DNA from: a virus
DNA: 64,000 bases
IMG/VR virus record: IMGVR_UViG_3300021365_000005
Coordinates: 1 to 64,000 of that record
Reading direction: 5' to 3' (one strand)
Part shown: piece by piece, positions 33,261 through 54,332 of the stretch
Layout of the letters: each line of letters starts with the position of its first letter
Numbering within the stretch: position 1 is the stretch's first letter
Program-made: the position numbers and the translations under genes
The notes under the pieces: model-generated
The model's database searches: none
What the model saw: only the letters and a program-made list of their open reading frames with translations
What the model was told of the DNA's origin: nothing

Positions 33261-33263
33261 AGA

Positions 33264-33452: not shown

Positions 33453-33455
33453 TTA

Positions 33456-33608: not shown

Positions 33609-33639
33609 AACTATTCCTTTATTTAATTAATATCTAGCT

Positions 33640-33837: not shown

Positions 33838-33858
33838 AGGTTATAACTCTTATTTTAT

Positions 33859-35913: not shown

Positions 35914-35941
35914 TTATTTTCTCTCCATTACTGCTTTTGAT

Positions 35942-37777
35942 CTATGCGTAGATATACATATTACCACCTGAATGTCTGATGTTTCCTATCTGATCTGCCT
36001 TAGCGTTCGTTGCTTCTGCCTCTGATCCATTTATTACAGCAGCAAAGTGATAGTCGGCTGCAACATCTTGAGGAGTTTCAGAATTCCAAATGTCAATATC
36101 ATTATTATAGTTGACCCCAAATCTACCATTACTTCCACTATAGTTGGTTTCCCATACTAGCATATTACCTTGCGATGCCGCTTCTCCAAATTGAATTCCC
36201 ACGTCTGTTGTAGTGGACCCAGATCCAATCAATATAAACTTATCTTTGATTTCTAGGTTTGTAGAAGCTATTGATGTTAGGGTTCCTTCTACAATTAGAT
36301 CACCTGCAATTGTAATAGTGTCTGAGGCATCTCCAAAGGTGAGGTTTCCAAGGTTGGCATTTAATAAAGCCCCGGCTGCAGCAGCTGGTGTGGTTTGACC
36401 TGTTCCACCGTGGTCTATAGCAAGAGCTGCGCCTGACCAATTATCATCGTTTATTTGAACCGCACCACCAAGAGTAATTACCGGGGTATTGCCTCCACTG
36501 CTTTCAAGGGATAGACCTGAGACGTTTGAGTCTGCTGTGACAGCCGTTACCGTTCCCACTTCTGTTGTGAAGTCTAGAGAACTACTTATAAAGCTAGTTA
36601 TATCAGCAAGGGTTGTGGACTTGATAGTAGCAGTGTCTGCGTCTTGGATTAGGAATTTATTTGTTGAATTAAGTGAATTAGCAGCAACATTGTCAAGCGC
36701 AGATATAAAACTCGGTGCTAAGTGTTCAGATAGAATAGCCCCAACACCAATTTTATCATTAGTAACTGCTCCGGGAGCTATTTGACTAGTTCCTACTCCA
36801 TCATCTTTAATTCTAATACCTGCACTACCTAGCTGAAGAGTGTTTCCATTTAAGTCAACAGTAAATGTCCTATCGCCAGAACCATCATAGGAATTAGCGC
36901 TAATACCATGACCATCATGAAGAGTTCCCAATCCAGAAATACCCGATCCTGGGATTCCCGTTAAGTTGGATCCATCACCTGTGAATGTCGAAGCAGAAAC
37001 TCCACCGCTTGCTGTTACACTTCCTGAAAAATAGTGGCTATCGCCTTCGTTATTTCCCCAAACTGTGGATCCTGTAATAACCCCAGCTGCAGCGTTCTCA
37101 AATGTGTATGCATTAAATGTAAGACTTCCGTCTACTGCAAGGGATCCTGTTATGGTTGCGTTTGAAGCGGAAATCCCCGTTGTTGCAGTAATCGTACCAG
37201 CTATTTCGGAATTCCCTGCAAGGAGTATATTCTCAGTGACGAGCACTGAAGCAGACACGACTGATGCAGAAACTATACCCGTTGTTGTGATATCACCAAA
37301 TCCTGAGACTATTGATCCTCCAGATAAAGCCCCTACAGAAGTTACATGTGTTTGAGCTGCATCAAGATTAATTGTGGTTCCATCAATCGTAACTCCGGTG
37401 CCTCCTGTGTAGGTCGTATCCGAGTAGTTAGATTCATGAATATTAGAAGAAGTAGTTGCTGCCCAATTAACGTGTTGATCTTCAAAATAGCCTGAAAGCT
37501 GGGAGTGAGTTATTTCTGCTGGTACTACGGAGAATGTGTTGTTTGAACCTGCATCTTGAAGTCCATCTCCGGGTACGTATGTGGTATTAGTACCAGCAAC
37601 CGAGCTTTGTGCAATAGATCTTAAGTTTCCACTACCATCAATTGTTACTACACGATCACCAGTGCTTCCAGGAGTCCCTGCTGTTATTGCGGTTCCTAGA
37701 TTTACCCCGACACTAGCTGTGACTGATGCTAGAGTTGCGTCGCTGCCGCTTAATATAATTTTTTTCCAAATTGCCAT
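35942..37777 (-). CDS. Large WKK-tag tail fibre/adhesin protein
   Basis: 611 residues beginning MAIWKKIILSGSDATLASVT. Long stretches alternate Ser/Ala/Thr/Val (ISASNATITGSLAVDGSLTF), as in fibre shafts, and the end holds a short conserved block (SNGRFGVNYNNDIDIW) that matches the 33859 protein. Both likely descend from one gene. It is downstream of the 37799 structural gene with a 21-nt gap. Confidence 0.7.
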   Translation of the reverse strand: MAIWKKIILSGSDATLASVTASVGVNLGTAITAGTPGSTGDRVVTIDGSGNLRSIAQSSVAGTNTTYVPGDGLQDAGSNNTFSVVPAEITHSQLSGYFEDQHVNWAATTSSNIHESNYSDTTYTGGTGVTIDGTTINLDAAQTHVTSVGALSGGSIVSGFGDITTTGIVSASVVSASVLVTENILLAGNSEIAGTITATTGISASNATITGSLAVDGSLTFNAYTFENAAAGVITGSTVWGNNEGDSHYFSGSVTASGGVSASTFTGDGSNLTGIPGSGISGLGTLHDGHGISANSYDGSGDRTFTVDLNGNTLQLGSAGIRIKDDGVGTSQIAPGAVTNDKIGVGAILSEHLAPSFISALDNVAANSLNSTNKFLIQDADTATIKSTTLADITSFISSSLDFTTEVGTVTAVTADSNVSGLSLESSGGNTPVITLGGAVQINDDNWSGAALAIDHGGTGQTTPAAAAGALLNANLGNLTFGDASDTITIAGDLIVEGTLTSIASTNLEIKDKFILIGSGSTTTDVGIQFGEAASQGNMLVWETNYSGSNGRFGVNYNNDIDIWNSETPQDVAADYHFAAVINGSEAEATNAKADQIGNIRHSGGNMYIYA

Positions 37778-37798
37778 GTTGTTTACTCGTTATAGATT

Positions 37799-38980
37799 CT
37801 AATATGTTGTTGCGTTAAACCTAGGGGTTCTTTCAGCTATTGAGGTATCCATCGGGATTGCGTAGCCTGAACTAGTTCCACTTGCCGAAGGAAATACATA
37901 TATTCCTGGTAAAGCTGGAGTTGCTAGGGTAACGTCTCCGAAGATATGGGATCCTGAATTTGGTCCAAATCCCTTCCAAAATTCAAAAGGGGCTGTGGCC
38001 TGAGATCCTGATACGAAATATATGGTTCCTCCAGATCCAGTAGCTCCTGACATAGATACATCTGATATTGCATACGTTCTAAGAAATGATTGTGACGCTA
38101 CTACGGATCCTGTTGGAAAGTGAAGAATATTTGTTTTTGGAGCAAAGTCATATGCTTCATCCGGTCCATCACCTAAAGCCTTAAGAAATCCAGTGTGCGT
38201 GACAAAATCTTTATAGTAAGGTTGTGCAGTATAAGAACCAGATCCCCAGTTAGTTCCAATAACCGAGGCTGTTGTTGAACTTGATGATCCATAAGGAGTC
38301 CAAATAGATGAACTTGCATATGTTTCAGAGCTATATTCAGATCCTGTAAAACTATGGAAAGCTATGCTTCTTGATGGGAAAGATCCTGCAAAACTCATTG
38401 TTTCCATTGGAAGGGTAAACTCAACAATAGTTGTGTTTCCAGCAATACTACCACCTCCTGCTTTGAGTATGATGTTTGTTGCGTTTGTGGATGTGTTGTA
38501 AATTGAAAGTAAGTTTGTTTGACCATCTCCTATAAATGCTACAGGAACTTCCCAACTAGCTGTTGCTGGAGCAGATGCCGTGGAAGATCCAGTATAAGAA
38601 CTAGAATCTATTTGCACGATAAGAGCAGGAAAATTTACAGCATTAAATGATGTACTTATTTGACTTTTAGCTGCAGAAGATAATGAACTAGAATTAAGAA
38701 AATTCGTCATATCTACTTTAAATCTATCCCTTTCCATTGCAGTATATGATAGGCCACTTCCAGTGTCGTAGATATAATATCCATCAGGATAGTCTGGGGC
38801 GGTTACAATAGAATCCCTATTGAAAAACCCAGTTGAGTTTTTAGATGCCTTAGCACCTTGCTGAAGGGTTAGAGGTAGCCTGTGTTTTGGTCTAAACTCA
38901 AGAGCGTTTGTAGAGTCACCTACTGATGCAGATAACTGTGCCCATGTTTTCATTTCCCACTTATTTTTGTATAATGACAT
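37799..38980 (-). CDS. Structural protein in fibre cluster
   Basis: 393 residues, rich in Ser, Thr and Gly, with many aromatic residues. The N-terminus MSLYKNKWEMKTWAQLSASV is only loosely like the tag. Short GSxxS motifs and ATASWEVPVAFIG suggest a beta-structured virion protein. No family recognised. A GATATTTATA box followed by AAAAGGA precedes the gene. Confidence 0.6.
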   Translation of the reverse strand: MSLYKNKWEMKTWAQLSASVGDSTNALEFRPKHRLPLTLQQGAKASKNSTGFFNRDSIVTAPDYPDGYYIYDTGSGLSYTAMERDRFKVDMTNFLNSSSLSSAAKSQISTSFNAVNFPALIVQIDSSSYTGSSTASAPATASWEVPVAFIGDGQTNLLSIYNTSTNATNIILKAGGGSIAGNTTIVEFTLPMETMSFAGSFPSRSIAFHSFTGSEYSSETYASSSIWTPYGSSSSTTASVIGTNWGSGSYTAQPYYKDFVTHTGFLKALGDGPDEAYDFAPKTNILHFPTGSVVASQSFLRTYAISDVSMSGATGSGGTIYFVSGSQATAPFEFWKGFGPNSGSHIFGDVTLATPALPGIYVFPSASGTSSGYAIPMDTSIAERTPRFNATTY

Positions 38981-38998
38981 TGGTTTTAAATCCTTTTA

Positions 38999-39008
38999 TA
39001 TAAATATC
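38999..39008 (-). promoter_or_regulatory. GATATTTATA box before 37799-38980
   Basis: Coding strand GATATTTATA overlaps the last bases of the 39007 gene and is followed by TAAAAGGA. Confidence 0.5.
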
Positions 39009-39627
39009 AGTTGCCAAGGTAAAAGTCCCCGGAGGCACTATAGAACATACCACCAGTAACTGGGGTAGGAGTTGTGTCGAATTGGCCTAATATTGTTACC
39101 CCCTGGAGGTTTATTACAAATTTAGTGTCTTCAGAGTTATGAGCTCTAACTACAAATAAGTCATTTACCCCATCTCCCTGAATGCTTACTTTTGAACTAG
39201 TAACTAAAGGAGCAAATAATGATTCAGAAAGATGTAGTTCGTGCTGAGGGTTTATAATGTGTAGTCCTACATTATCACCAACAACTGTGAATGGATTCCC
39301 AATTATATTACCAAATGCAGGGTTGGCTATAGCAGCAGGAAAAGCCATATTGTCTGTAACGGTTACTGCAGTAGAGTCTGCAATTGTTATAGCAACTTGG
39401 TTTGGCGAATCAACTGCGACTTGAACTTGAACGGTTGTTGCAGGCTCTGTTGATATGTTTTCAACGACTGGGGAAGTTGTTATGGTACCACCCTCTAATA
39501 CACTAACAGCAGAACTTATTGATATAGTGCCACCTGCTAAAATATCATTAATATCTAGACTATATACAGCAATGTCGGAAACACTTATCGATTCTGAATC
39601 GTCATGTATTTCAACCGATTGTAGCAA
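39007..39627 (-). CDS. Virion protein, TTG start or read-through partner of the gene upstream
   Basis: 206 residues. The first available start is TTG at 39627, since no ATG occurs before residue 93; it lies in the same frame as the gene upstream, separated only by TAA CTA. Content: acidic N-terminus (IHDDSESISVSDIAVYSLD), beta-rich middle, and GMFYSASGDFYLGN at the end, a typical fibre tip. Probably a fibre-associated protein. Whether it is initiated at TTG or made by stop read-through cannot be decided here. Confidence 0.55.
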   Translation of the reverse strand: MLQSVEIHDDSESISVSDIAVYSLDINDILAGGTISISSAVSVLEGGTITTSPVVENISTEPATTVQVQVAVDSPNQVAITIADSTAVTVTDNMAFPAAIANPAFGNIIGNPFTVVGDNVGLHIINPQHELHLSESLFAPLVTSSKVSIQGDGVNDLFVVRAHNSEDTKFVINLQGVTILGQFDTTPTPVTGGMFYSASGDFYLGN

Positions 39628-39630
39628 TAG

Positions 39631-40002
39631 TTATCTCGTAACTTCTGGAGATAACTTTATCGAGCCTTGTAGTAATCTAGTTACTGTTGAAGAAGCAGGA
39701 TCTTCTATTTCAATATCATAAACTGCTGAATCAAATGTGTAGTTCTTTGTAACAGATGCTTCAATTCTAAGCTGTATAGTACCACTAGCTGTGGAATTGG
39801 TAGTAGCTAGTATAGTCATGCCACTTCCAGTTTCAAATGACCCTCCAACCACAGGAGCAGCATCTGTTATAGCATCTCGTATATGCATTCGTACTAAATA
39901 GCCATTTAGATCTACAACATTAGCACTTGAATCTTTATATGTGAATTGCTTTACTACTGTTGTTCCTTGTTCTATGGTAAAATTATAAATGCCGGCTGCC
40001 AT
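39631..40002 (-). CDS. Small virion protein, Ig-like candidate
   Basis: 123 residues, beta-rich throughout (IYNFTIEQGTTVVKQFTYKD, GTIQLRIEASV, YDIEIEDP). Looks like a single immunoglobulin-like or carbohydrate-binding domain common in phage structural proteins. TAGGAG precedes the ATG. The stop TAA is followed in frame by CTA TTG of the next gene. Confidence 0.6.
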   Translation of the reverse strand: MAAGIYNFTIEQGTTVVKQFTYKDSSANVVDLNGYLVRMHIRDAITDAAPVVGGSFETGSGMTILATTNSTASGTIQLRIEASVTKNYTFDSAVYDIEIEDPASSTVTRLLQGSIKLSPEVTR

Positions 40003-40034
40003 GTGGGTCTCCTAAACGTGATTGTACTTCCATA

Positions 40035-40044
40035 TATAAATATA
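40035..40044 (-). promoter_or_regulatory. TATATTTATA box before 39631-40002
   Basis: Coding strand TATATTTATA about 33 nt before the ATG, downstream of phoH. Confidence 0.5.
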
Positions 40045-40067
40045 CAAAAAAGTACTAAATGAATACA

Positions 40068-40748
40068 CTATAAAACTTTACCAGGTCTATCTTCATAAGC
40101 CTGAAGTATAAGTTTTAGTATTGGGTGTCTGTGATTTTCTAATAACTCGATGGTGTGTAGTCCAGCTACAGTTTTAATTGATTGCAAAAACTTTAACCCA
40201 GACTCTCCTGTAGACTTTAGATCTATTTGATCTGAATCTCCGCAAAACAACATTTTAGATCCTTTACCTATTCTTTGAAGAATCATTAAGGTTTGTTCAT
40301 GGGTCAAGTTTTGGGCCTCATCTACAATTATTACAGAATTTGTAAAAGTACGGCCTCTCATATAAGATACAGGAACTATTTCAATTTGTCTATTACTTAT
40401 CATAGCGTCTATACGCTCGCGCCTAAGTAGCTGATACATGTTTCCATATACAGGTGCTACCCATGGATCCATTTTGTCATCAATACCTCCTGGTAGATAT
40501 CCCAGATCTTCTTTAGATATTGTAGGCCTTGTGATTATTATTTTTTCAACATGTTTATCTAAGGCTAGGTTTAGTGCTATTTGACATGCTAATAAGGTTT
40601 TTCCAGATCCTGCATTTCCTAGTACGATTGACACATCATTTTCTAAGATTATAGACTTTGCTTTTTTTTGCTCTGGGTTTAGAGATAATAAAAACCTATA
40701 TCCTTTTTTATTATTTTTAGGCTTAACTTTTGAAAAACTTGTAGACAT
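40068..40748 (-). CDS. phoH: PhoH-like P-loop ATPase
   Basis: 226 residues with Walker A GNAGSGKT near residue 44, TRPTISKEDLGYLPG, Walker B IIVDEAQN and the PhoH-specific GDSDQIDLK. PhoH proteins are ATPases, often viewed as RNA-associated, widely carried by marine phages; their phage role is not settled. It has AAGGAG and its own GATATTTATA box after the capsid terminator. Confidence 0.92.
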   Translation of the reverse strand: MSTSFSKVKPKNNKKGYRFLLSLNPEQKKAKSIILENDVSIVLGNAGSGKTLLACQIALNLALDKHVEKIIITRPTISKEDLGYLPGGIDDKMDPWVAPVYGNMYQLLRRERIDAMISNRQIEIVPVSYMRGRTFTNSVIIVDEAQNLTHEQTLMILQRIGKGSKMLFCGDSDQIDLKSTGESGLKFLQSIKTVAGLHTIELLENHRHPILKLILQAYEDRPGKVL

Positions 40749-40768
40749 TAAGATCTCCTTTTCTTTAC

Positions 40769-40778
40769 TATAAATATC
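40769..40778 (-). promoter_or_regulatory. GATATTTATA box before phoH
   Basis: Coding strand GATATTTATA just past the capsid gene terminator, 21 nt before the phoH ATG. Confidence 0.55.
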
Positions 40779-40784
40779 TCACAC

Positions 40785-40816
40785 AAAAAAAGAGACTCAA
40801 ATTAATGAGCCTCTTT
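40785..40816 (-). terminator. Intrinsic terminator after major capsid gene
   Basis: Minus strand AGAGGCTCA pairs with TGAGTCTCT (one G-T) around TTAATT, followed by a T-run. Starts about 25 nt past the gp23 stop. Confidence 0.85.
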
Positions 40817-40840
40817 CGTAGAATTATACTAAACTTAAAC

Positions 40841-42349
40841 TTAAAGGATGTTTGAAACTGTTAGCTTAGCGTAGAAGTCTTTACGAACTACTTTCTTAGC
40901 ATAACGTGTCATTACACCTTTACGTGGAGTAAAGTTGTTTGGATCATAAACCAATGGAGTCATGATTAGTGGGATATATGGAGCGTAAACCGCACCTGTT
41001 TCAAGGAATTGATTTCCTCGGAATCCTATAATCATATCTGCAGAGTTCCAATATGGATTCTTGTAAACCTTATAACGGTTTGCAAAGTTTCCAATTTTTT
41101 CTACACCTGCTGCAAATCCATCTGTATTTCCATCTGTATCTACTGCGAAACTAGGAATAGTTTCAAGAACAGTAGCAACATCAGGAGAACAAACGATAAA
41201 GTTTGCACCACCACGCATTGTCGCTCTGTGGATCTTATTAGATAGCTTTTGGATTTCATATCCAATAGTAGCATTGTGTGTACCTAACGTGTAAGCCCAA
41301 GGACCTGAAGACGTTTGATATCCCTTAGCAGAAGCATTTGTTGGATCACCGACCCAAGTGCCGCTAAAGCCAGCAGAAGAGTGTAGCATTTCAAGGATCT
41401 CTAGATCGATTTCCATTGCAATGTACTCAGATAACATTGAAGTTAATTCTGCTTCAGCATCAATTGAGTGATACGCATTTAAATCTTGTGCAAACTCTGG
41501 AGTCCATACAACTTTTAACTTACGTGTCTTAGCAACTAAAGCCTCTGACTCTAGAGAAACCTCTAGTTCTGGAATATTTAGTTGAGCTTCCTCAAGTTCA
41601 TTTCCAACAGTGTGCTGGGCCTCGAAATCACCACGAAGACCAGCTGCAGTAGATACATCACCATTCTGTTCAAGTTGGTGATAGTGTACTGTTACAACGT
41701 CAGTTGCACCAGGCATACCACTGAATGTTACCTCACCGGTTGCTTGATCAAAAGAAGTAGCAGCGTATTCAGTAGATCCTGATACAGCGTATGCTGAAAG
41801 ACCCATGTCTAAATCTGCCTTTGTAAAGCCACCTGCATTAAGCTTGGTTCCCTTAGCAGCTAGAGTAACTGAAGCAGTTGATTGGGGAGCTCGCATAGAG
41901 TAAGCAGAACGACCAGGACCAGGATAAAGACCTTTTGTAAAGTCAGTTGTAGCTGCCTTTCCGTTTGATCCGAATATTGACTGTGTGTTGTCTACTGGGA
42001 ATTTATCATTACCATATTTGAAATCCAACCAGAAAACTAGACCTGAAGGTAAGTTCATTGGTTGTACCGATACGAAATCTTTTGCTGAGATTTCTGCAAA
42101 GATACGTCTTACTAGGGGAAGAGCTACGCCATTCCACTCATCATTAGCTGTTGCAGTGTTGTTTGCCTCAGAGATAAGTTGTTTAGCTTGGTTTTCCAAA
42201 AGAATAGCAGTGTTATGTTTATCATATTCACCACCAAGTCCTTCTAAAAGTCCAGTCTTTTCCCATTTAGTAACGTAGCCTTGTGTTTCATTGCGTTGTG
42301 TCGCAAATGCTGCCTTAGAATCTTGCAGCAAGTTTGAAATATTTGACAT
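40841..42349 (-). CDS. 23: Major capsid protein, gp23-like
   Basis: 502 residues (T4 gp23 has 521); forms hexamers of the head. MNLPSGLVFWLDFKYG and VVWTPEFAQDLNAYH (with K before it) and the C-terminal RYAKKVVRKDFYAKLTVSNIL are typical of gp23. Candidate gp21 cleavage sites with (L/I)xE are GLLE near residue 37 and QLISE|ANNT near residue 61, near the T4 position (about 65). TAGGAG precedes the start; no separate box, so it is probably co-transcribed with gp22. Confidence 0.97.
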   Translation of the reverse strand: MSNISNLLQDSKAAFATQRNETQGYVTKWEKTGLLEGLGGEYDKHNTAILLENQAKQLISEANNTATANDEWNGVALPLVRRIFAEISAKDFVSVQPMNLPSGLVFWLDFKYGNDKFPVDNTQSIFGSNGKAATTDFTKGLYPGPGRSAYSMRAPQSTASVTLAAKGTKLNAGGFTKADLDMGLSAYAVSGSTEYAATSFDQATGEVTFSGMPGATDVVTVHYHQLEQNGDVSTAAGLRGDFEAQHTVGNELEEAQLNIPELEVSLESEALVAKTRKLKVVWTPEFAQDLNAYHSIDAEAELTSMLSEYIAMEIDLEILEMLHSSAGFSGTWVGDPTNASAKGYQTSSGPWAYTLGTHNATIGYEIQKLSNKIHRATMRGGANFIVCSPDVATVLETIPSFAVDTDGNTDGFAAGVEKIGNFANRYKVYKNPYWNSADMIIGFRGNQFLETGAVYAPYIPLIMTPLVYDPNNFTPRKGVMTRYAKKVVRKDFYAKLTVSNIL

Positions 42350-42370
42350 TATTGTCTCCTAAATTTTAAA

Positions 42371-43282
42371 TTAAATTAAACCGGCAAGCTTACGCATGCG
42401 GTCTGAAAAGTTGTTTGATTCTACAATCACCGATTTGTTTGGTGCAGTAGATTTTGTAGATTTTGAAGCTAAGCCTTCAGTCATTGAAGATTTAGTTCCG
42501 CCTTTGCCTACGATTGATTCAGCAAGTGTTGAATAGACCAACTTAACTTCGCGAACTGATGCTGCTCTATCGAACGTTTCAATTACACGTAGCTTTTGTG
42601 ATTCATTCAAGTTATTAGCTCTGAAAAGTTTATTAGAAAATAGTAGCTTAGCATTTAGTAAGTTAACCTCATTGATCTTAGATCTTAGGAACTTAATAGT
42701 AGCATAAGCTTCTTCTAAATCAGATTCACCAACGACTTCTTTATCGTCTTCAGCTTCTTCATCTTCTTCTCTTAGTGCATTAATAACTTCTTCGAGGTCG
42801 AATTCTTCATCGTCCTCTGTTGCATCTTCTGTTACAGGCTCTTCTTCTTCAGCAGCGGCGTCTTCAGCGACAGGGACTTCGTCCTCATCTGTTTCAGTTC
42901 CGGCTTCTAGTTCACGAAGGATAGCTTCTAACTCGAGGTCATCTTCAGATTGTTCACCTTCAGCTTCTGCTGCAACTTCTGCATCATCTTCTTCAGGGGC
43001 CATTTCTGCGTCTTCGTCATACATACCTTCAACCTCTGTATCTTCTTCATCTGCTGTGAGTTCTGCAACGGGATCAGTTTCTTCTTCAGAATCCATTGCC
43101 ATTTCAGCAGTGGGAACTTCTTCTTCTTCTTCGTCTTCGTACTCTTCACGAATTTTAGTAGATAACATAGACTGGAGTTTGGGCGTAAACGCTTCTTCTA
43201 AAGCTAATTTTGCATTTGCAATTGCAGTCTGACGGACTGCCTTAGCATCAGCTATAGCTTCTTTTAATAGGTCTTTTGACAT
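42371..43282 (-). CDS. 22: Prohead core scaffold, gp22-like
   Basis: 303 residues. N-terminus MSKDLLKEAIADAK, then an extended acidic block (residues about 45-195, dozens of D/E) and a basic helical C-terminal part (LRSKINEVNLLNAKLLFSNK, SFSDRMRKLAGLI-like end). T4 gp22 is likewise acidic and is degraded by gp21. It precedes gp23. The acidic block is larger than usual. AAGGAG supports the start. Confidence 0.9.
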   Translation of the reverse strand: MSKDLLKEAIADAKAVRQTAIANAKLALEEAFTPKLQSMLSTKIREEYEDEEEEEVPTAEMAMDSEEETDPVAELTADEEDTEVEGMYDEDAEMAPEEDDAEVAAEAEGEQSEDDLELEAILRELEAGTETDEDEVPVAEDAAAEEEEPVTEDATEDDEEFDLEEVINALREEDEEAEDDKEVVGESDLEEAYATIKFLRSKINEVNLLNAKLLFSNKLFRANNLNESQKLRVIETFDRAASVREVKLVYSTLAESIVGKGGTKSSMTEGLASKSTKSTAPNKSVIVESNNFSDRMRKLAGLI

Positions 43283-43328
43283 ATTATTCTCCTTATATTA
43301 TAATTAGGAAATAAGACTATTAGGAGTC

Positions 43329-43400
43329 TCAATAAAATTGTTTTGGATTGCATGTCTTGCCACATATTACGGATGGGGCATTTTTGCATGCTGGTTTCAT
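43329..43400 (-). CDS. Possible 23-residue Cys-containing peptide
   Basis: ATG at 43398-43400 reads MKPACKNAPSVICGKTCN then a short end and TGA. No Shine-Dalgarno. It fills the otherwise non-coding 43283-43493 gap with the bS21 terminator. Three Cys in 23 residues is unusual, but chance cannot be excluded. Confidence 0.2.
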   Translation of the reverse strand: MKPACKNAPSVICGKTCNPKQFY

Positions 43401-43433
43401 AATATAAGTATATATGAATTTATAAAAGCCCAC

Positions 43434-43466
43434 AAAAAAAAGACCAAAGACGCTAAATCTTTGATC
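43434..43466 (-). terminator. Intrinsic terminator after bS21 gene
   Basis: Minus strand GATCAAAGA pairs with TCTTTGGTC (one T-G) around TTTAGCG, followed by eight T. It lies about 28 nt past the bS21 stop. Confidence 0.85.
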
Positions 43467-43493
43467 TAATTTAAGTTTTATATGAAAATTAAC

Positions 43494-43820
43494 TTACATT
43501 GCTGTGCCGCCGCCTTGGCTGTCTTCTATAATAGCGGTCCAAATATAACCATCTTCTAGTTTTTTCTGGGCTTTCCATCTAAACTGCTCGTTACGACAAG
43601 CTTCGATTCGGGCTCTTCGTTTAACAGAAGTTGGTTTGGTATATGTTCGGCGATTCTTATACTCGTCGATTTTACCAGCTTCTTTTAGATTTTTTTTAAA
43701 ACTTCTTAATGCACCTTCAAGTGCTGCTGAAGAATCGTCTGGCACCCTTACTCCAGTTCCACTTTTATCTAGTGTGAAGTCACTTCTTTTATAGCGCTTA
43801 CGCTTTTTATAATCTTCCAT
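43494..43820 (-). CDS. rpsU: Ribosomal protein bS21 homologue
   Basis: 108 residues. Residues about 31-75 match the bS21 core: LEGALRSFKKNLKEAGKI, then YKNRRTYTKPTSVKRRARIE. bS21 binds the 30S platform next to the anti-Shine-Dalgarno. The N-terminus (30 residues, KKRKRYKRSDF) and the Trp-bearing C-terminal extension (about 30 residues, RWKAQKKLEDGYIW) go beyond bacterial bS21 (about 70). The gene has a dyad-type promoter and a terminator but no Shine-Dalgarno. Phage bS21 is known from some marine phages. It probably joins host ribosomes to bias translation. Confidence 0.88.
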   Translation of the reverse strand: MEDYKKRKRYKRSDFTLDKSGTGVRVPDDSSAALEGALRSFKKNLKEAGKIDEYKNRRTYTKPTSVKRRARIEACRNEQFRWKAQKKLEDGYIWTAIIEDSQGGGTAM

Positions 43821-43846
43821 GTATACTTTATTAATTATTTACTATG

Positions 43847-43883
43847 TAAATATACAAAAAAATAGTTGATATAAAAAATTTAT
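43847..43883 (-). promoter_or_regulatory. Dyad-type promoter of bS21
   Basis: A/T inverted repeat at 43871-43883 centred about 23 nt upstream of TATATTTA (43847-43854). Confidence 0.55.
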
Positions 43884-43895
43884 TTGGGGTTATTT

Positions 43896-44237
43896 TTAAA
43901 TAGACCTAAATTTAGGAGATCCTTTTACCGCTTCGTCTTTACCGGAAGCCGTCATCTGAACTAATAAATACCAATCTTCTTTACCATTAGTTACATAATA
44001 TGCAGCCCAATCTTCTCCAGAAAAATAGACATCAGCGCCAGTTATATAGCTATCATTATCTACACTACCATCTGAAGATTTCTTATCTAATAGAGACTTA
44101 TACTTACTTGGAAAGTCTTTGAACTCCCATCCACTTTTTTTAAGGTCCTTAGCAAATGATGGGAAATCGCTCATTTTTGAGATATCTTTGGGATGTGTAT
44201 CTGATGATTCGTATAGGAGATTTTTTAATTTTATCAT
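43896..44237 (-). CDS. Unknown protein with capsid-targeting-like tag; paralogue of 14240 gene
   Basis: 113 residues. The N-terminus MIKLKNLLYE|SS fits an (L/I)xE prohead protease site. The rest aligns with the 14240 protein (THPKD, GWEFKDFPS, SLLDK, AVKGSPKFRS). Start overlaps the stop of the 44237 gene (TAATG). No Shine-Dalgarno, so it probably depends on coupling. I infer internal head protein; function unknown. Confidence 0.65.
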   Translation of the reverse strand: MIKLKNLLYESSDTHPKDISKMSDFPSFAKDLKKSGWEFKDFPSKYKSLLDKKSSDGSVDNDSYITGADVYFSGEDWAAYYVTNGKEDWYLLVQMTASGKDEAVKGSPKFRSI

Positions 44238-44527
44238 TATTTTATTTTTTTATTAAGCCACTTAACACAATATGCAATTAATTCTTTTTTGGCTGGTTTA
44301 ATATCAGATGGTTCAGTCAGTGGACCTCTACCCCAAGTAAGCCAAGCTTCTTCAATAAGTGCTAAACCTGCACCTACATCTCCATCCCCATCAATAGTTT
44401 CAACATACTCTTCGTTTATTGGCTCCGATTCCGTTAGAGGATTCCACTTCATTTTCATCAATTTAGATGATGGTAGAGTCCCTAGTGCAGAATTCTCTTT
44501 TAATATGCCTTTTAATTTTATCATCAT
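44237..44527 (-). CDS. Unknown protein with capsid-targeting-like tag
   Basis: 96 residues from MMIKLKGILKE. The frame extends to an ATG at 44638, but that part overlaps the 44524 gene and has a biased Arg/Lys composition; GGAG lies about five nt before 44527, so I start there. The tag ends Leu-Lys-Glu. The body has an acidic segment (EYVETIDGDGDVGAGLALIE) and a basic tail. Function unknown. Confidence 0.6.
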   Translation of the reverse strand: MMIKLKGILKENSALGTLPSSKLMKMKWNPLTESEPINEEYVETIDGDGDVGAGLALIEEAWLTWGRGPLTEPSDIKPAKKELIAYCVKWLNKKIK

Positions 44528-44670
44528 TTTTCTCCGAAATATTTTGATCCTTTTTTGGGTTGCCCTTTTTTTGTAGTTACGTATACTGGGTCGTCGGGTT
44601 CGAATTGGGCTTCTAATTCTACTAGCTTTCGTTTCCATTCCTGTACGCTAAATGTTTTATTTTTACTCAT
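44524..44670 (-). CDS. Small unknown protein (48 residues)
   Basis: Reads MSKNKTFSVQEWKRKLVELE, then EPDDPVYVTTKKGQP and a basic end (GSKYFGEK). The start overlaps the stop of 44667 (ATGA) and the stop overlaps the start of 44237, placing it in a chain of coupled small genes. AGAGGA lies just before the ATG. Confidence 0.6.
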   Translation of the reverse strand: MSKNKTFSVQEWKRKLVELEAQFEPDDPVYVTTKKGQPKKGSKYFGEK

Positions 44671-44927
44671 AGTCCTCTTTCCGAAATGTAGGCATCAATA
44701 TCTTCAGACCAATCATCCAAGTCAAAGTTTTTATACTTTTTAACACCAGACTTTTTAATGTCTTTTGCAAGAGATGTTAGGTATGCTTTTTTTTCATGAG
44801 GAGTTAAGTTTTCCTTAGCTGCTGCTATGTTAGCAAGCATTAGGACATCTTTCGAGGAAAGAGCTTCTCCAAGTAAAATACTAGAAATTTCCTCTCGGAT
44901 TATTTCTTTTAGTCTTTCCTTATTCAT
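44667..44927 (-). CDS. Small unknown protein with (L/I)xE-rich N-terminus
   Basis: 86 residues. The N-terminus MNKERLKEIIREEISSILLG has several LKE, IIRE and ILLGE elements, similar in spirit to the tags of its neighbours. The rest is Lys-rich helical (TPHEKKAYLTSLAKDIKKSG). Start coupled to the stop of 44927 (TAATG). Function unknown. Confidence 0.55.
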   Translation of the reverse strand: MNKERLKEIIREEISSILLGEALSSKDVLMLANIAAAKENLTPHEKKAYLTSLAKDIKKSGVKKYKNFDLDDWSEDIDAYISERGL

Positions 44928-45661
44928 TATGCCTTGCTCACTGAATCTACGTCAACAGCCATCCAATCATTATTGCCGCCTTTAAAGCCTGCTTTTGCCT
45001 GAACAACTTTCACAGCCTTTTTAATTGCTTCTGCTGGAGTTCTAGCAATTACCTTTGACACACCACCAAAAGCAACGCCATTTACATTTGACTTTGCAAA
45101 CTTAACTTTCCATGTGCCAGAGCCTTCTTTAAGAATAGATCCTAGTTTTGTTGATTCAGTAAATTCTTCTGCATTTTCTTTATCATCCTTATCTACACTT
45201 TTAACTGGGAATTCCTTTCCGTCTACAGTAAACTCGTCTTCGTCATTAGCTATTGCTTTTGCTCTTTCAGCTCCAAATGCATTACCTTCTGAAATCTCAT
45301 AATACTTACCTAGCTTGTGGCCCATGTCTTCATAAACAGACTCAAGTCGCTGTTGAAGTGCGGATAGTTCTCTTGCTGTTTTTTCAAACAACTTAACAGA
45401 AGATGCTACTTCATTCATATCACGCTTAACAGTTACAGAATCAAACCAATCGTCGGTTTCTTGAAGAGCTAGTTGTGTAGCTCCTTCAGACATTTTAACT
45501 ATGGCTTCAACCATTTCTTTAATTTCTTCGGTTCTATAGATTTTAGATCCAAACTCGTTGAATGAAGAAACAGATTTAATAATATCTTGTTTTGCTTCTT
45601 TTGTTAAGTGCCTTGCTAGGCGATCCTTATTATTCTCGTATAGAAGATTTTTTAATTTCAT
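44927..45661 (-). CDS. Unknown protein with capsid-targeting-like tag
   Basis: 244 residues. MKLKNLLYE|NN at the N-terminus nearly equals the tag of the 43896 gene. The middle is helical (ELSALQQRLESVYEDM), and an internal KLGSILKEGS around residue 175 holds a second (L/I)xE site. The C-terminal domain (AFGGVSKVIARTPAEAIKKA) looks compact. It lies next to the protease gene. Best guess: an internal head protein cut by gp21 at least once. Confidence 0.65.
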   Translation of the reverse strand: MKLKNLLYENNKDRLARHLTKEAKQDIIKSVSSFNEFGSKIYRTEEIKEMVEAIVKMSEGATQLALQETDDWFDSVTVKRDMNEVASSVKLFEKTARELSALQQRLESVYEDMGHKLGKYYEISEGNAFGAERAKAIANDEDEFTVDGKEFPVKSVDKDDKENAEEFTESTKLGSILKEGSGTWKVKFAKSNVNGVAFGGVSKVIARTPAEAIKKAVKVVQAKAGFKGGNNDWMAVDVDSVSKA

Positions 45662-45664
45662 GGG

Positions 45665-46297
45665 TTATCTCTTGTTTGGAAGTGCACAGACACACGTTAA
45701 GTCACAAAGGACTTCATTTATTATAGTATTAACCCTATCGTACTTATTTAAGGGTATTAGTTTATTATTTACAGATTCATTAATTGCAGGAGTCATAAAT
45801 GCTCCATGGGTAGATGGGTTGCTTACAAAGTCCCAACACACTAATTCAAAGTCGTCTTGAACTTCTACACCAGCTGCAGATTCTTTTACCGAACCTAGAC
45901 CTCTTGAGCTAATGCCTAATAGGATGCCAGCTTTTAGAAGTTCTTTTAAAATGTTTCCTGATGGTGTGCTAAGTACTTCTACTTCACCCATTAGGTCGTT
46001 ATTTTTCCACCAGATTTTTCTAATGTTATGGGAAACATTGGCCAGGTTAACCACCGAAGAGTCTGGATGGTCTAGTTCACCAAGTGCTCGGTTTTGAGTT
46101 ATAAATTGTTGATCATACTTTTTGGCTTCACGTTCTAGTACTGGACGTGGGTATACCCTGCCGTTTTGATTTTCAGCACCTGCTCTTTGAAGAATTCCCT
46201 TTACAATTACCCTACCACCATTTTTGGCTTCAGACTCATTAATCATTTGGGGTGAAATTTTAAATATATTATAATCAACCAGTAATTGTTTAGTCAT
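45665..46297 (-). CDS. 21: Prohead protease, gp21-like
   Basis: About 210 residues from ATG 46297 (MTKQLLVDYN). An in-frame TTG at 46309 also exists, but GGAG lies 7 nt before 46297. RAGAENQNGRVYPRPVLE, ALGELDHPDSS with the catalytic His, and GISSRGLGSV with the catalytic Ser define gp21-type proteases, herpes-assemblin fold. They cut scaffold, capsid and internal proteins after (L/I)xE. Location between portal-side genes and scaffold is as in T4. Confidence 0.92.
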   Translation of the reverse strand: MTKQLLVDYNIFKISPQMINESEAKNGGRVIVKGILQRAGAENQNGRVYPRPVLEREAKKYDQQFITQNRALGELDHPDSSVVNLANVSHNIRKIWWKNNDLMGEVEVLSTPSGNILKELLKAGILLGISSRGLGSVKESAAGVEVQDDFELVCWDFVSNPSTHGAFMTPAINESVNNKLIPLNKYDRVNTIINEVLCDLTCVCALPNKR

Positions 46298-46440
46298 TAG
46301 TTGCTCCAAGTTGACTTTTTACGATATAGATCAAAAAAGATTTTTGCAACTTCTTTTCTGATTACAGCTCTTATTATTGAAATGTCATCAGGGGTTAAAT
46401 TTTCAGTAATGACTTTGTTGTTGGGCTTTTGGGTTGGCAT
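46297..46440 (-). CDS. Small unknown protein (47 residues) between core-like gene and protease
   Basis: Reads MPTQKPNNKVITENLTPDDI, then ISIIRAVIRKEVAKIFFDLY and KKSTWSN. Start overlaps the stop of 46440 (TAATG), and its stop overlaps the protease start (TAATG). T4 has small core genes (67, 68) in this stretch. Function unknown but the coupling on both sides makes it convincing. Confidence 0.65.
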   Translation of the reverse strand: MPTQKPNNKVITENLTPDDISIIRAVIRKEVAKIFFDLYRKKSTWSN

Positions 46441-46868
46441 TAGAATTTCCTTAATTTTTCTGAAATGCCAGACATTCTTTCTGCTATTTTGTATAGAGTT
46501 TTTCTAGTGCTTTTCCAATACTTTCCTCTATCAACTCCAGTTTCAGTTTTAAGCTTTATATTGTTAGTAAGGATTTTATCAATTTCTTTAAGCTTTCCTG
46601 CAATCTCTTTAATAGCTCTATTTACTTTTTGCTTGGGAGTAGCAGTCTCGTCTTTTTTATATGCTCTATAACTAGTTTCACCTAGCATAATTTTAGAAGC
46701 TTTTACGAATGTAGACTCTTCGACTTTTTCATAGCCATTTTTTTCAACATCCTCATCATCAAGCTCACCAAATGCATAAGGGGTATTATAAGCTTCACCA
46801 GCTCCAGTAGAATTGGTTTCGTCCATAATGTCTTTGATCAATTCTTCAAGTTGGCTATTTAACGACAC
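46440..46868 (-). CDS. Head-region protein, T4 67/68 position
   Basis: 142 residues. GTG start at 46868 with AGGAG seven nt upstream. GEAYNTPYAFG near residue 23 is a phrase common in marine T4-like proteins of this locus as I recall it. A Lys-rich helical C-terminus (KLKEIDKILTNNIKLKTETG, then EKLRKF) follows. Probably a core or scaffold partner; assignment to gp67 or gp68 rests on position. Confidence 0.6.
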   Translation of the reverse strand: MSLNSQLEELIKDIMDETNSTGAGEAYNTPYAFGELDDEDVEKNGYEKVEESTFVKASKIMLGETSYRAYKKDETATPKQKVNRAIKEIAGKLKEIDKILTNNIKLKTETGVDRGKYWKSTRKTLYKIAERMSGISEKLRKF

Positions 46869-47715
46869 GATTTAACTCCTGGGCTAGTTCGTGGGCTCTC
46901 ATTATAGAAAGTACTTGCTCGTCTTTAATTATTTTCGATTCATTAATAGCCAATAACTGAACTATAACTTCTTGAAGCTTTACTTTGATTACTTTGTCTT
47001 CGACTTTTGGAAGGTTGGCTCTTAAAGATTTTGTTATTTTGCTAGTAGCTGACTGGACATGCTCTTTAAGTTTTCCAGTATTAGAAACATTATTGATATA
47101 ATTTTTTAATAGGTTTTTTTGGCCTTTATTTAATCCATTATACTTAGAATTAAACTTTTCTAAAAGAATATTGTATGTTAGCAAACGAACATCTTCAGAT
47201 TCTGTTTTATAAGTTTCTAAAAGTTTGTCACTTTTGCGGGCTTTAGATTTGGGCTTAAAAATATGCTCGACTAAAGTATTTCTTGAAGTCATCGTTTTTA
47301 AAGGGGACTTAGACTTCATTAAATTCATTTCAAACAAGTTGTATATAGAAGCATTGACTTTATAGTCGGATATTTTAGTTGAAAAAAATAGATCTAAATC
47401 ATAAGTGTTTTTTATTTCACGAATTAAATTATACTTTTCAGACTTAAGCTTTGGTTGGCTTAGGTTTTTATGCTCTACCAAAACAATATCAACAAATTTA
47501 TTTGCTTTGGCTTCTGAAGTCATTGCTTCTGTTTTAAGCATTTGATAGTAGTTTAGCTCTTTTTTAAGCAAAGAAGGTCCACTAAAAAACTTTTTAACTA
47601 TATTTGCAGCCGGAGAATTGTCTACAGCATTAATAGCATCATTTGTTATCTGTCTTACCAGTAACTCGAACAATACGCCTGTATTTTTAAATTTTGAATG
47701 TTTTACTTTACTCAT
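46855..47715 (-). CDS. Helical head-region protein downstream of portal
   Basis: 286 residues, mainly helical and Lys-rich, with few Gly, Cys or Trp. KFKNTGVLFELLVRQITND starts the conserved part, and VLSIMRAHELAQELNRVVK ends it. It lies between portal and protease, where T4 has core genes 67/68. A core or assembly function is the best guess. A GATATTTATT box lies upstream. Confidence 0.6.
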   Translation of the reverse strand: MSKVKHSKFKNTGVLFELLVRQITNDAINAVDNSPAANIVKKFFSGPSLLKKELNYYQMLKTEAMTSEAKANKFVDIVLVEHKNLSQPKLKSEKYNLIREIKNTYDLDLFFSTKISDYKVNASIYNLFEMNLMKSKSPLKTMTSRNTLVEHIFKPKSKARKSDKLLETYKTESEDVRLLTYNILLEKFNSKYNGLNKGQKNLLKNYINNVSNTGKLKEHVQSATSKITKSLRANLPKVEDKVIKVKLQEVIVQLLAINESKIIKDEQVLSIMRAHELAQELNRVVK

Positions 47716-47747
47716 ATTATTTCCACGATGGGTTTCGATGCATCACT

Positions 47748-47757
47748 AATAAATATC
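47748..47757 (-). promoter_or_regulatory. GATATTTATA-type box (one mismatch) before 46855-47715
   Basis: Coding strand GATATTTATT about 33 nt before the ATG, in the gap after the portal gene. Confidence 0.4.
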
Positions 47758-47765
47758 TATATATT

Positions 47766-49559
47766 CTATAAAGAGTTATCATCCATTATATTATTTTCAC
47801 TAAGTAGGTTTTGGCGTTTAGACTTGGCTAATCCTTTTTCATCTAGAGATTTTATAAAGTTTTCTCTATTAACAGATCTAGTTTCCTTTCCTAATGGGTC
47901 TCGGCCTCTTGCTGAGTTTTGGGATACTCCATACTTTGGAGATTTTTTTGGCCTACCACCTTCTGTCCCAAATTCTTCGTCGGTTTTAGCAGGGGCACCT
48001 TCAGGAGGGCCATCTGACTCTTCTGCGTCTATTGTTGCCAATGCATGAGGGGTTCCTAGGGTTTCTTGAGATTTAGATGGATCGTTACCTTCCATTTCGA
48101 TTTGAGACTTTCTAAATGCTTGTTTAGTATCTTCTATTACACCTTCACGTTCACCTTCTACATCTTCGGAGTTAAGACCAAATACATTTTCATAGATCCA
48201 AGATTCTGAAAGCATTTTATTGCTTTTCATAGATTCTGCTAGGTCGACTTTAGATGACCATAGTTCCATTTTTTCTTGTTCGGCAATTGTTGACGGATTA
48301 GATAATGTTAGTTTAAAGTCTACTAGATCGGCATCTGTATATCCCTGAGAATATAAATGGACTATAGCTATTTTGGTTAATTCTGAAACGAATATTTTTT
48401 GAAGTCTTTCTATTGTTCTAGCAAATCGAACATCTTCAGCTGCTAACGTAGCTTTTTCGCCTAGGTTTTCATCATAGCCTAAAAATGCTTTTGGTATTTT
48501 TAAAGCAGCAAACATACGATTTCTTAAATATTCAATATCATCGATACCTCCAAAGTCCATACCAGATAAAGAATCGATTTCAGTTCCAGATTGACCACCT
48601 CTAACCGGAAGGAAAAAGTCCTCCATCATATTTTGCATGTTAAATTCTAAATTATATTGTCCGGTTGCAGGATCTACAAAAGGAGTTTTTTTCATGCTAT
48701 CAATAATTCTTTTCATATAGTTGTCAACTTCTGCAGGAGGAATATTTCCGATGTCGATTTTAAATACTCTTTTTTCAGGAGCTCTCATGATTCTATGGAT
48801 CATCATCGCATCTTCCATAAGAGTTAACTGTTTCCAGTTTTTGCGGGCTCCTTCTATCATTGACTTACCATATGGGATAAAATTAGCATCACTTAATAGT
48901 CTAAAGTGTGCTATTTCATAATTATCATATTCATCTTGCTCTCTATTAACAGCACCGCCATACTGAGAAGCCCCTGCCATAGAAGGGTCGTGTACAAATT
49001 TAACAAGTTCTGGGTTTGAAGGATCTTCGCCGTCAATACGAACCATTTCGTAAGTTGACATAGGATGAACACCAGTAACTCCATACTTTTCAGTAATATC
49101 TAGCTTAAGATAAAAGTCCCCATACTTGCACATGTTTCTAATCCATGGCCACAAATTAAATTCAATATTTAATACGTCATAAAAAAGGTTGTTTAGTATT
49201 TTTTCAACTTCTGAATTAGTGCTAGTGATTTCTAAAACATTTCCAAATTCATTTTTTAATGTTGACTCGTCTGCATAAATATCTAATGCTGAAGATATGA
49301 TTGAATCTTCATCCATTAACTCATAGTCTGTAAATAGTTGCATTCGAATAGCATGATAATTTGTATGAATTCCTCTACCTTCGCCACGTTGAGCTTGGTA
49401 TAAGCGATTAAACCTATCAACCAACCTATTAGAAGCTAGGTCTGAACCTGCCTGTATTTTATTAATGTCAACAACTTTAAGACCTTTATCAGCCCTTTGG
49501 ATAATTGTTGAAGTAGAAAATAATGTTCTTAATCTACCAAAAAATGATTTATCGTTCAT
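47766..49559 (-). CDS. 20: Portal protein, gp20-like
   Basis: 597 residues (T4 gp20 has 524). GIHTNYHAIRMQLFTDYELM, then SSALDIYADESTLKNEFGNV and WPWIRNMCKYGDFYLKLDI are hallmark portal segments, as is EDAMMIHRIMRAPEKRVFKI. The C-terminal 100 residues are extended and acidic. It forms the dodecameric vertex through which terminase packages DNA. Follows terminase with an 11-nt gap and AAGGA before the start. Confidence 0.96.
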   Translation of the reverse strand: MNDKSFFGRLRTLFSTSTIIQRADKGLKVVDINKIQAGSDLASNRLVDRFNRLYQAQRGEGRGIHTNYHAIRMQLFTDYELMDEDSIISSALDIYADESTLKNEFGNVLEITSTNSEVEKILNNLFYDVLNIEFNLWPWIRNMCKYGDFYLKLDITEKYGVTGVHPMSTYEMVRIDGEDPSNPELVKFVHDPSMAGASQYGGAVNREQDEYDNYEIAHFRLLSDANFIPYGKSMIEGARKNWKQLTLMEDAMMIHRIMRAPEKRVFKIDIGNIPPAEVDNYMKRIIDSMKKTPFVDPATGQYNLEFNMQNMMEDFFLPVRGGQSGTEIDSLSGMDFGGIDDIEYLRNRMFAALKIPKAFLGYDENLGEKATLAAEDVRFARTIERLQKIFVSELTKIAIVHLYSQGYTDADLVDFKLTLSNPSTIAEQEKMELWSSKVDLAESMKSNKMLSESWIYENVFGLNSEDVEGEREGVIEDTKQAFRKSQIEMEGNDPSKSQETLGTPHALATIDAEESDGPPEGAPAKTDEEFGTEGGRPKKSPKYGVSQNSARGRDPLGKETRSVNRENFIKSLDEKGLAKSKRQNLLSENNIMDDNSL

Positions 49560-49570
49560 TTGAATTCCTT

Positions 49571-51145
49571 CTATAGTAGCCAGGTAAGATCTTCATCCTT
49601 TCCGGCGATATTTTGTTTCCAAGCATTAGTGCCAGGACCTGTTGCATTACTGTAAAACCCAGTTCTACCTATATGATCCATAGCACTTCTATTTAATTCA
49701 AGACCTTCATTTCTAAGTTTCAATGCAGAATCTCTAACAAATAGCCCAATGGCAAATGCCATTACAAGATCATCATTATAACCACGTTGAGCTTCAGGTC
49801 TTGAACCGTTCCAAATAAAAACGAATAACTCTTCTAACAATCTAGAAGACCTTACTGTACAAGCTTTCTCTCTAAAATAAATATCAAGTTTTGATATTAG
49901 GAGTGGTCTTGTTCTAGATGTTGTTGAAAATCCTGGGGTCATTTGAGATCGGTCTTTTAAATCATAACCTTTAGACAATTGGGTTGCTGCATCAACTACT
50001 CCTTCATGTTTATAAGTGTAGTATAAATTTTTATAACCTCTGTCTATTGATGGCTGCAGTGCTGCCCATCCGACATTATCGTTTTCTACAATTAATAAGG
50101 CTTCATTATATTCTGTAGCGACATTAACTAGCATGTTTCCAAATTCTTTCGTACCGATCTGGGCTTTATACTCTGCCACTTGTGTTACCGAATCTACATC
50201 CATTATATGGAAAGTTGAAAAATCACTCCCGTCGCCTCGAGCTACATCTGCTACTACAATATAGCTTTTTGTATAATCAGGCCTTTCCCATATTTGGAAT
50301 TCTCCGGCTACTCCTCTAGTTTCAATAGGAGGCAAAGCCATATTTTCTTTATACCACTCTAGGAGCTCTCCGGAAATTACAGAGTTACCAGAAGTAATAA
50401 AGTCACAGTCACATTCTTGGGCAGCATGTTTAGCCCCAAGAAGTTCGTCTTGTTCGTCTCTCCAAGGTTGATGTCTTTCTGGATGGACCGACCAATGCAG
50501 TCTTATAGTATTGAATTTATTATTGGGCTCTTCTGCTTTTACCCATGTTTTATGGAAAAAATTACCAGTACCATTTGGAGTTGACAAAATAATTGCTTTA
50601 CCCCCTGTTGCTAGGGTTTGTTGAGAGGATGCCCAGATTTCATCGATTTTATCAATAAAGGCTGCCTCATCCATAACCAATAAAGACAGGGCTTCAGATC
50701 TACCAGCATCACCAGCAGCAGATACAGCTTTAATTTGTGATCCATTTTCAAATCTTAAAGATAGTTTGTTATCTTCCGACGCTGCATTTTTTAGCCATGA
50801 AGGAAGATAGTGATGCATAACCCTGACTTTAGTAACCAGGTTTTTAGCAACTTCTTGCTTTGTAGCAATAACTAATGTGTTGAAATCCTCATTAAATGTC
50901 ATAGCCCAAAGAGCATAACCAGCGGTTAGAGTTGATATCCCCAACTGTCTAGATTTTAGAATAATATTGTAGTCGTAGTCTTTAAATTCTGTTAAAGATT
51001 TTTCTTGAAAAGGAAAAAGATTAAATAGGATTTTACCTCTAGTTGGATGTTGGATATAGCAATACTTTCTCATAAAGTGTACTGGATCCTTTGCACACAG
51101 CTGATACTCGTCCGCAATGATTTGTTTTATTGTTTTCTTTGCCAT
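49571..51145 (-). CDS. 17: Terminase large subunit, gp17-like
   Basis: 524 residues. The ATPase domain has a Walker A variant KSRQLGIST near residue 84, Walker B SLLVMDEAAF near residue 155, and STPNGTG as coupling motif. The nuclease domain has VADVARGDGSDFSTF near residue 300 and a C-terminal Asp in NDDLVMAFAIG. Length is a little below T4 gp17 (610). A TATATTTATA box precedes. A small terminase (gp16) was not recognised upstream. Confidence 0.96.
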   Translation of the reverse strand: MAKKTIKQIIADEYQLCAKDPVHFMRKYCYIQHPTRGKILFNLFPFQEKSLTEFKDYDYNIILKSRQLGISTLTAGYALWAMTFNEDFNTLVIATKQEVAKNLVTKVRVMHHYLPSWLKNAASEDNKLSLRFENGSQIKAVSAAGDAGRSEALSLLVMDEAAFIDKIDEIWASSQQTLATGGKAIILSTPNGTGNFFHKTWVKAEEPNNKFNTIRLHWSVHPERHQPWRDEQDELLGAKHAAQECDCDFITSGNSVISGELLEWYKENMALPPIETRGVAGEFQIWERPDYTKSYIVVADVARGDGSDFSTFHIMDVDSVTQVAEYKAQIGTKEFGNMLVNVATEYNEALLIVENDNVGWAALQPSIDRGYKNLYYTYKHEGVVDAATQLSKGYDLKDRSQMTPGFSTTSRTRPLLISKLDIYFREKACTVRSSRLLEELFVFIWNGSRPEAQRGYNDDLVMAFAIGLFVRDSALKLRNEGLELNRSAMDHIGRTGFYSNATGPGTNAWKQNIAGKDEDLTWLL

Positions 51146-51153
51146 AACCTATA

Positions 51154-51163
51154 TATAAATATA
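51154..51163 (-). promoter_or_regulatory. TATATTTATA box before terminase
   Basis: Coding strand TATATTTATA, 8 nt before the terminase ATG, after the stop of 51167. Confidence 0.5.
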
Positions 51164-51166
51164 TAC

Positions 51167-51547
51167 TTACTCTGGTAAAGTGTACCCTACAACATGAATA
51201 AGACCTATTGTTCCTAATACCCCTAAAACTACCCCGAAAGGCCTTTTATCATACCATTTATCAACTTTATTAAGTCTATCATCATATAGTTGAATCTGGC
51301 TTTCTAATAGAGTAATTTGCTCTTGCTTATATGCAATAACCAAGCTATCTTGTTTAATAATAGTTTCAAAAAATTTAATTTCAGATTCTAAACTAATTAT
51401 TATTAAATTGTTTATAGAATCCTGCTCAACTAAAGTGTCTATAGCTTCGATTATACCATCAAGCTCGACTTGAGGTACTGGTATTGTGTCTTGAGCCGAA
51501 GTGGCAAATGACAACATGGTTAAGAATAGTACTAATATTAATCTCAT
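51167..51547 (-). CDS. Secreted coiled-coil protein with C-terminal membrane segment
   Basis: 126 residues. A signal peptide (MRLILVLFLTMLSFATSAQ) is followed by a long coiled coil (about residues 25-95, SLESEIKFFETIIKQDSL) and a C-terminal hydrophobic segment (GVVLGVLGTIGLIHVVGYTL). The layout fits periplasmic lysis factors such as spanins, or an envelope anchor. No lipobox Cys. The SAQ cleavage context is common in Bacteroidetes secreted proteins. Start overlaps the stop of 51544 (ATGA). Function inferred only. Confidence 0.55.
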   Translation of the reverse strand: MRLILVLFLTMLSFATSAQDTIPVPQVELDGIIEAIDTLVEQDSINNLIIISLESEIKFFETIIKQDSLVIAYKQEQITLLESQIQLYDDRLNKVDKWYDKRPFGVVLGVLGTIGLIHVVGYTLPE

Positions 51548-51855: not shown

Positions 51856-51865
51856 AACATATTTC

Positions 51866-54330: not shown

Positions 54331-54332
54331 TA

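Follow-up and report, generated by a model that had tools for sequence, protein, structure and literature searches.

The bS21 ribosomal protein encoded by this phage appears to be of a type that does not mask the anti-Shine-Dalgarno (anti-SD) sequence. We put at about one half, or slightly above, the probability that it is matched to the ribosomes of a Shine-Dalgarno (SD)-using host of the same Arg54 type, rather than serving to retarget ribosomes. The window, as the whole analyzed stretch of 64,000 nucleotides is called here, is part of a virus record of 97,456 bases (the contig), which is probably incomplete. Sequence comparisons across phages and hosts support the view that the type of bS21 residue 54 and the use of SD sites go together.

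The phage bS21 gene and its product

The bS21 ORF (Table 1) matches PF01165 in a profile search (41.2 bits, with a cut-off of 27) and corresponds to PHROG 21469, "ribosomal protein S21"; by these matches it is a genuine bS21. Positions 43821-43883, which the first-pass annotation had grouped with the gene, lie outside the ORF and comprise its leader and promoter region. The same annotation had described extra segments at both ends of the protein, and these are indeed present: approximately 30 additional residues at the N end and approximately 25 at the C end, which are kept among relatives and are clade-specific. Within the alignment of five sequences, R7, K11, D14, F15, G23, V24, V26 and P27 are invariant in the N-terminal extension, as are W94 and T95 in the C-terminal one. 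The relatives thus share the pattern R.. K.. DF......GV.VP ahead of the core and WT close to the end. An AlphaFold model of modest confidence (mean pLDDT 64.6, pTM 0.28, input of only five sequences) predicts helices at residues 31-47, 50-57 and 65-101. A tblastn search of isolate phages with the window bS21 gave no match.

The genes for the putative scaffold and for gp23 are located downstream of bS21, and those for portal and terminase upstream, all on one strand. The replication block encodes DNA polymerase B, asparagine synthase, RNR, DnaB, an exonuclease, RecA, gp32 and UvdE, of which the RNR and gp32 genes have SD sites. The window contains no tRNA genes.

Table 1. Coordinates of features in the window
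Feature	Coordinates	Strand	Remarks
Replication/metabolism block	229..13191	-	Mostly SD-less; SD fraction 0.15 (n = 13)
Asparagine synthase	3946..5325		Encoded by the phage
UV-damage endonuclease UvdE	12268..13191		52% identity to a UvdE from a Bacteroidota genome
Late block	13254..64000, on to contig position 87142	-	SD in ~46% of genes; ATATTTAT precedes many places
Virion-region protein	32469..33260		Dockerin/EF-hand match PF00404, 23.2 bits, barely above the cut-off of 22.9
Major capsid protein gp23 (T4-type)	40841..42349	-	PF07068, 261 bits; SD TTTAGGAG
Gene between bS21 and capsid	42371..43282	-	AAGGAG as strong SD; matches no family; taken as scaffold from its position
Phage bS21 gene	43494..43820	-	108 aa; core 34-77; Arg76 at F. 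johnsoniae Tyr54 position; N- and C-terminal extensions
SD-less leader and likely bS21 promoter	43821..43895	-	TTTTTTAT (43871-43878), TATATTT (43848-43854); conserved in L002, L007, L008
Portal protein	47766..49559	-	Upstream of bS21
Terminase large subunit	49571..51145	-	Upstream of bS21

Residue 54 and SD use in phages and bacterial genomes

Tyr54 of F. johnsoniae bS21 stacks on A1534 and guides the 16S tail to its pocket (PMC9976891). In the reference sequence, which was taken from a structure (7jil_z), this residue lies 13 positions past the KP motif, and Arg76 of the window protein aligns with it, gap-free across the KP...A stretch. Arg is invariant at this position in the five-sequence clade alignment. 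Other non-aromatic residues occur elsewhere, namely Ala in sister group S, Lys in phage Mel-JY01 and Leu in three further loci (L150, L158 and L159). The basal relative L011 carries Phe and has SD sites in 3 of 16 genes.

Residue 54 separates two classes of phage bS21. Phages with a non-aromatic residue have SD sites in a median of 68% of genes (range 10-88; 24 contigs, with many near relatives that represent about four or five lineages), compared with 5% for those with an aromatic residue (0-19; 12 contigs) and 7% for gp23 relatives that lack bS21 (0-15; 17 contigs). The comparison of classes gives p = 2.6e-6 and 1.2e-7, the contigs not being independent samples. Among the gp23 relatives, loci with a non-aromatic bS21 have SD sites in many or most genes, whereas loci without bS21 do not. 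A search with F. johnsoniae bS21 revealed 21 viral loci in which residue 54 is Tyr or His, and none of these has SD sites over background. Likewise, SD use is not above background in three huge phages with Tyr54, and reaches 15% in a fourth (LR756501). LR756508, one of the non-aromatic lineages, is an exception, with Met54 and SD sites in just 10% of genes.

The same association is found in cellular genomes. From the phylum of a Flavobacteriales MAG, 148 genomes were sampled; approximately 20 kb around bS21 was taken from 60 of these, and 58 could be scored. The median proportion of genes with SD sites is 4.5% where residue 54 is aromatic (n = 21) and 17%, up to 59%, where it is not (n = 37; p = 5e-7), and these scores show that SD-using Arg54 lineages exist inside the phylum. 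The link between bS21 and SD use suggested by the first-pass annotation therefore holds, in that bS21 type tracks SD use in phages and host genomes alike. The count of SD sites that it proposed for host and phage was run on the phage contig and on these 58 Bacteroidota genomes.

In the literature searched, no report relates residue 54 of phage bS21 to SD use by the phage. The residue might serve as a one-position predictor of SD use by a phage and its probable host, and as a marker for host type. A vague notion of phage translation control would become a testable rule, namely that a non-masking bS21 goes with SD sites.

Perhaps, however, phage bS21, as an exchangeable protein, acts apart from SD recognition, by keeping ribosomes complete late in infection or by recruiting phage messages through its extensions, with SD use merely mirroring that of the host. 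The conserved, clade-specific extensions fit this idea, as does the published late expression of phage bS21 (PMC9723584). Moreover, Tyr54-type phage bS21 exists without SD use, so the protein must bring some other benefit there. Alone, such a role does not explain why early and late genes of the window phage differ in SD use (see below), and we consider it rather unlikely.

The likely host

Among the sampled hosts, the eight best matches to the core of the window bS21 are all Arg54 proteins from Bacteroidota sensu lato, and the best matches to L002 bS21 are likewise all Arg54. Tyr54 phage proteins are closest to those of Tyr54 hosts, and the His54 protein of phage L167 is closest to that of a His54 host; on these similarities, phage bS21 type tends to mirror host type. 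The gp23 relatives include Flavobacterium and Rhodothermus phages. Promoters of the Bacteroidota kind are present in Tyr54 and Arg54 hosts alike, and therefore narrow the host down to Bacteroidota sensu lato, but no further. A lineage of this group that uses SD sites and has an Arg54-type bS21 is the most likely host. The first-pass annotation had assumed a Flavobacteriia host with a hidden anti-SD. This assumption is not supported, given the arginine in the phage protein and its nearest cellular homologues among the sampled hosts, all Arg54.

The single informative host-like gene is uvdE, whose product is closest to that of a Tyr54 genome; on the basis of two genomes, it favors Bacteroidota over Pseudomonadota. 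Other indicators were set aside. RNR matches a Bacteroidota genome and Vibrio phages equally (61%), and asparagine synthase has weak matches everywhere. MAG bins place group-S phages in Flavobacteriales, Euryarchaeota and other bins, and one bin contains both phage types. By tetranucleotide composition, the control immuto falls with Tyr54 hosts and SD-using phages fall more often with Arg54 hosts; the window contig is undecided.

Most sampled Tyr54 hosts have GGAGG-like sites before their bS21 genes. These include extended SD sites such as AAAGGAGGT before rpsU (L238, L254, L255, L256, L267, L273, L278, L279, L282, L286 and L294), in agreement with what is published for Flavobacteriales. Nearly all Tyr54-type phage bS21 genes are without an extended SD, the exception being that of LR756501 (L165), which has GGAGG. 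Tyr54-type phages may thus escape host-type autoregulation by means of an SD-less bS21 gene.

The bS21 leader and promoter-like motifs

As the first-pass annotation had stated, the bS21 gene has no SD; the predicted pairing of its upstream region is -0.5 kcal/mol, compared with -0.2 for its own shuffles. This absence is not exceptional, because about two thirds of the genes on the contig lack an SD, among them the neighbors of bS21 at 43896-44237 and 44237-44638, and so it was rejected as a special mark of bS21. Nevertheless, it is common to six phages (the window phage, L002, L007, L008, L011 and G369), each with its own AT-rich promoter-like region upstream, and its retention is more than chance. 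Members of sister group S (L018, L020, L052 and others) instead have a conserved AGAGGT before bS21.

The spacing of TTTTTTAT and TATATTT before bS21 is like that of the -33/-7 boxes of Bacteroidota promoters, and the region resembles the stretch ahead of 5312-5851. Two promoter-like motifs of the Bacteroidota kind are overrepresented in the contig: TTTTTTA-N-TATATT (5 occurrences, 0.1 expected) and TCGTANNTT (6, 0.2 expected). Sigma70-type promoters are not enriched in any contig tested.

Further motifs were observed in this phage group and its relatives. ATATTTAT, a likely late promoter, is enriched 5' of genes in all contigs of the window's phage group (13 occurrences in the window's contig, 1.5 expected). 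A/C-rich leaders ahead of the ATG, for example TTTAAACCCACTAAA, are common to early genes (contig 92-97 kb, L004; also L307), as are long conserved promoter regions of the form TTTAACGA...TCGTAGT...TCGTATATTG. Early promoters of group S (G037:C1, L125-L133) conform to CTTGACTT-N-TTCGTAGCTTTA, which is a TTG/TANNTTTA variant. This variant is also enriched in SD-rich Arg54 hosts (11 TTTR, 0.8 expected) and is a possible host clue.

Distribution of SD sites along the contig

An SD core (AGGA, GGAG or GAGG at -18 to -4, the anti-SD being taken as the usual CCUCC) precedes 37 of the 108 genes of the 97-kb contig (34%), whereas the control interval from -45 to -31 gives 7; ORFs were called and start codons assigned mechanically on the joined contig, with ATG only, and short ORFs may be false. 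The SD duplexes are energetically stronger than those of the genes' own shuffles (p = 6e-6). The first-pass annotation had portrayed a genome that uses strong SD sites. This is true of gp23, the putative scaffold gene, gp32 and several tail-region genes, which are preceded by AGGAG or AAGGAG, but not of the genome as a whole.

SD sites are unevenly distributed. They precede 34 of 74 genes in the late block (contig 13.3-87.1 kb), compared with 3 of 33 in the replication (0-13.3 kb) and early (87.1-97.4 kb) blocks; Fisher's test gives p = 1.5e-4, although rotating the gene order gave an equally extreme result in 6 of 108 cases; block borders were set after looking, and the labels "early" and "late" are based on gene content and on promoter-like motifs. 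The frequency of G at -12 to -7 is 0.09 in the early block, close to the values for Tyr54 hosts (0.12) and for the phages of such hosts (0.08-0.10), whereas late-block genes have 0.30. Close kin share the SD-less early block (G359, 0 of 16 genes; G356, 2 of 24; L308, 0 of 20).

These observations, together with the SD-less bS21 genes of the six phages, could reflect a translational switch in a Tyr54, SD-blind Bacteroidia host, in which unaltered host ribosomes would read the SD-less early genes and bS21 first. The Arg54 phage protein would then replace that of the host, free the anti-SD and turn ribosomes to SD-bearing late messages, thereby bringing about the early-to-late change at the level of ribosome type. 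F. johnsoniae bS21 that is truncated or carries Y54A allows more translation of strong-SD messages, with a 3-fold gain in vitro for the Tyr54-to-Ala change (PMC9976891); unmasking of the anti-SD by an Arg54 protein is therefore conceivable in principle. However, the core of the phage protein is like that of Arg54 hosts, phages with a clear Tyr54-type bS21 hardly use SD sites, the equally non-aromatic group S and Mel-JY01 have no such clear split, the split is weak in the more distant relative G369, and the borders were chosen after the fact, so both the exchange and the order of reading that it implies are unlikely. Of the earlier suggestion that exchange of bS21 could retarget ribosomes, what stands is that bS21 type tracks SD use, and that SD sites are lacking from the early genes and from bS21 but present before many late genes; its premise of a Tyr54 host that hides the anti-SD does not.

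A putative non-masking bS21, probably matched to its host

Matching of the phage protein to an SD-using host is preferred because it accounts for most of the data with no need for retargeting. Transcription of bS21 from a Bacteroidota-type promoter of its own would give an SD-less message, whose translation would be independent of SD pairing. The protein would be loaded onto 30S subunits, either replacing host bS21 or beside it. With Arg at the Tyr54 position, such subunits should keep the anti-SD free, which would suit the SD-bearing late genes. Because the host would itself be SD-using and of Arg54 type, phage bS21 would supply ribosomes of the host's own type and would not convert SD-blind ones.

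The invariant Arg, the SD classes of phages and hosts, the Arg54 best matches, the Bacteroidota-kind promoter motifs and the gp23 kin are all consistent with matching, as is the entry of another phage's bS21 into E. coli 70S ribosomes (PMC6375957). On the other side, the early/late split is not what would be expected of a fully SD-using host; the early block, which is SD-less and has leaders like those of Bacteroidia, is poorly explained and looks like a switch in an SD-blind host. UvdE is nearest a Tyr54 genome, LR756508 has low SD use despite Met54, and independent lineages are few.

Comparison with known systems

Redirection of ribosomes by phage bS21 has been proposed before (PMC9723584, PMC6375957 and the discussion in PMC9976891). 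In the Bacteroidetes phages described by Chen et al. 2022 (PMC9723584), the bS21 gene lies in a neighborhood of terminase, portal, protease and capsid genes, and its product was proposed to replace host bS21. As in their clades a-e, the window bS21 is close to TerL, portal and MCP, although no protease gene was found there. Residue 54 is aromatic in 61 of 61 of those phages (according to their text), whereas it is Arg in the window. Also, bS21 and the structural genes are on opposite strands in those phages but share a strand in the window.

F. johnsoniae bS21 (PDB 7jil; PMC9976891) belongs to the same family and, by homology, occupies the same place on the 30S platform as the window protein would. 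Its Tyr54 hides the anti-SD and its own gene has an extended SD; the window bS21 has neither, and has long extensions instead.

The RpsU protein of Microcystis phage Mel-JY01 (PP395634.1) has Lys54 and is encoded upstream of gp23, in a genome with SD sites in 67 of 228 genes; RNR of this phage is 66% identical to that of the window. Mel-JY01 differs from the window phage in carrying an AGGA site on its bS21 gene and in lacking a clear block of SD-less early genes. Intergenic regions of Mel-JY01 (L144-L147) contain 19 instances of TTG-N17-21-TANNTTTG, compared with 0.6 expected, which corresponds to the Bacteroidota promoter. On account of this enrichment, the recorded Microcystis host is probably wrong, and a member of Bacteroidota present alongside it in the culture is a likelier host.

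Pelagibacter phage HTVC008M also encodes a bS21, the one shown to enter E. coli ribosomes (PMC6375957), but this protein is of the alphaproteobacterial type and comes from a phage lineage different from that of the window.
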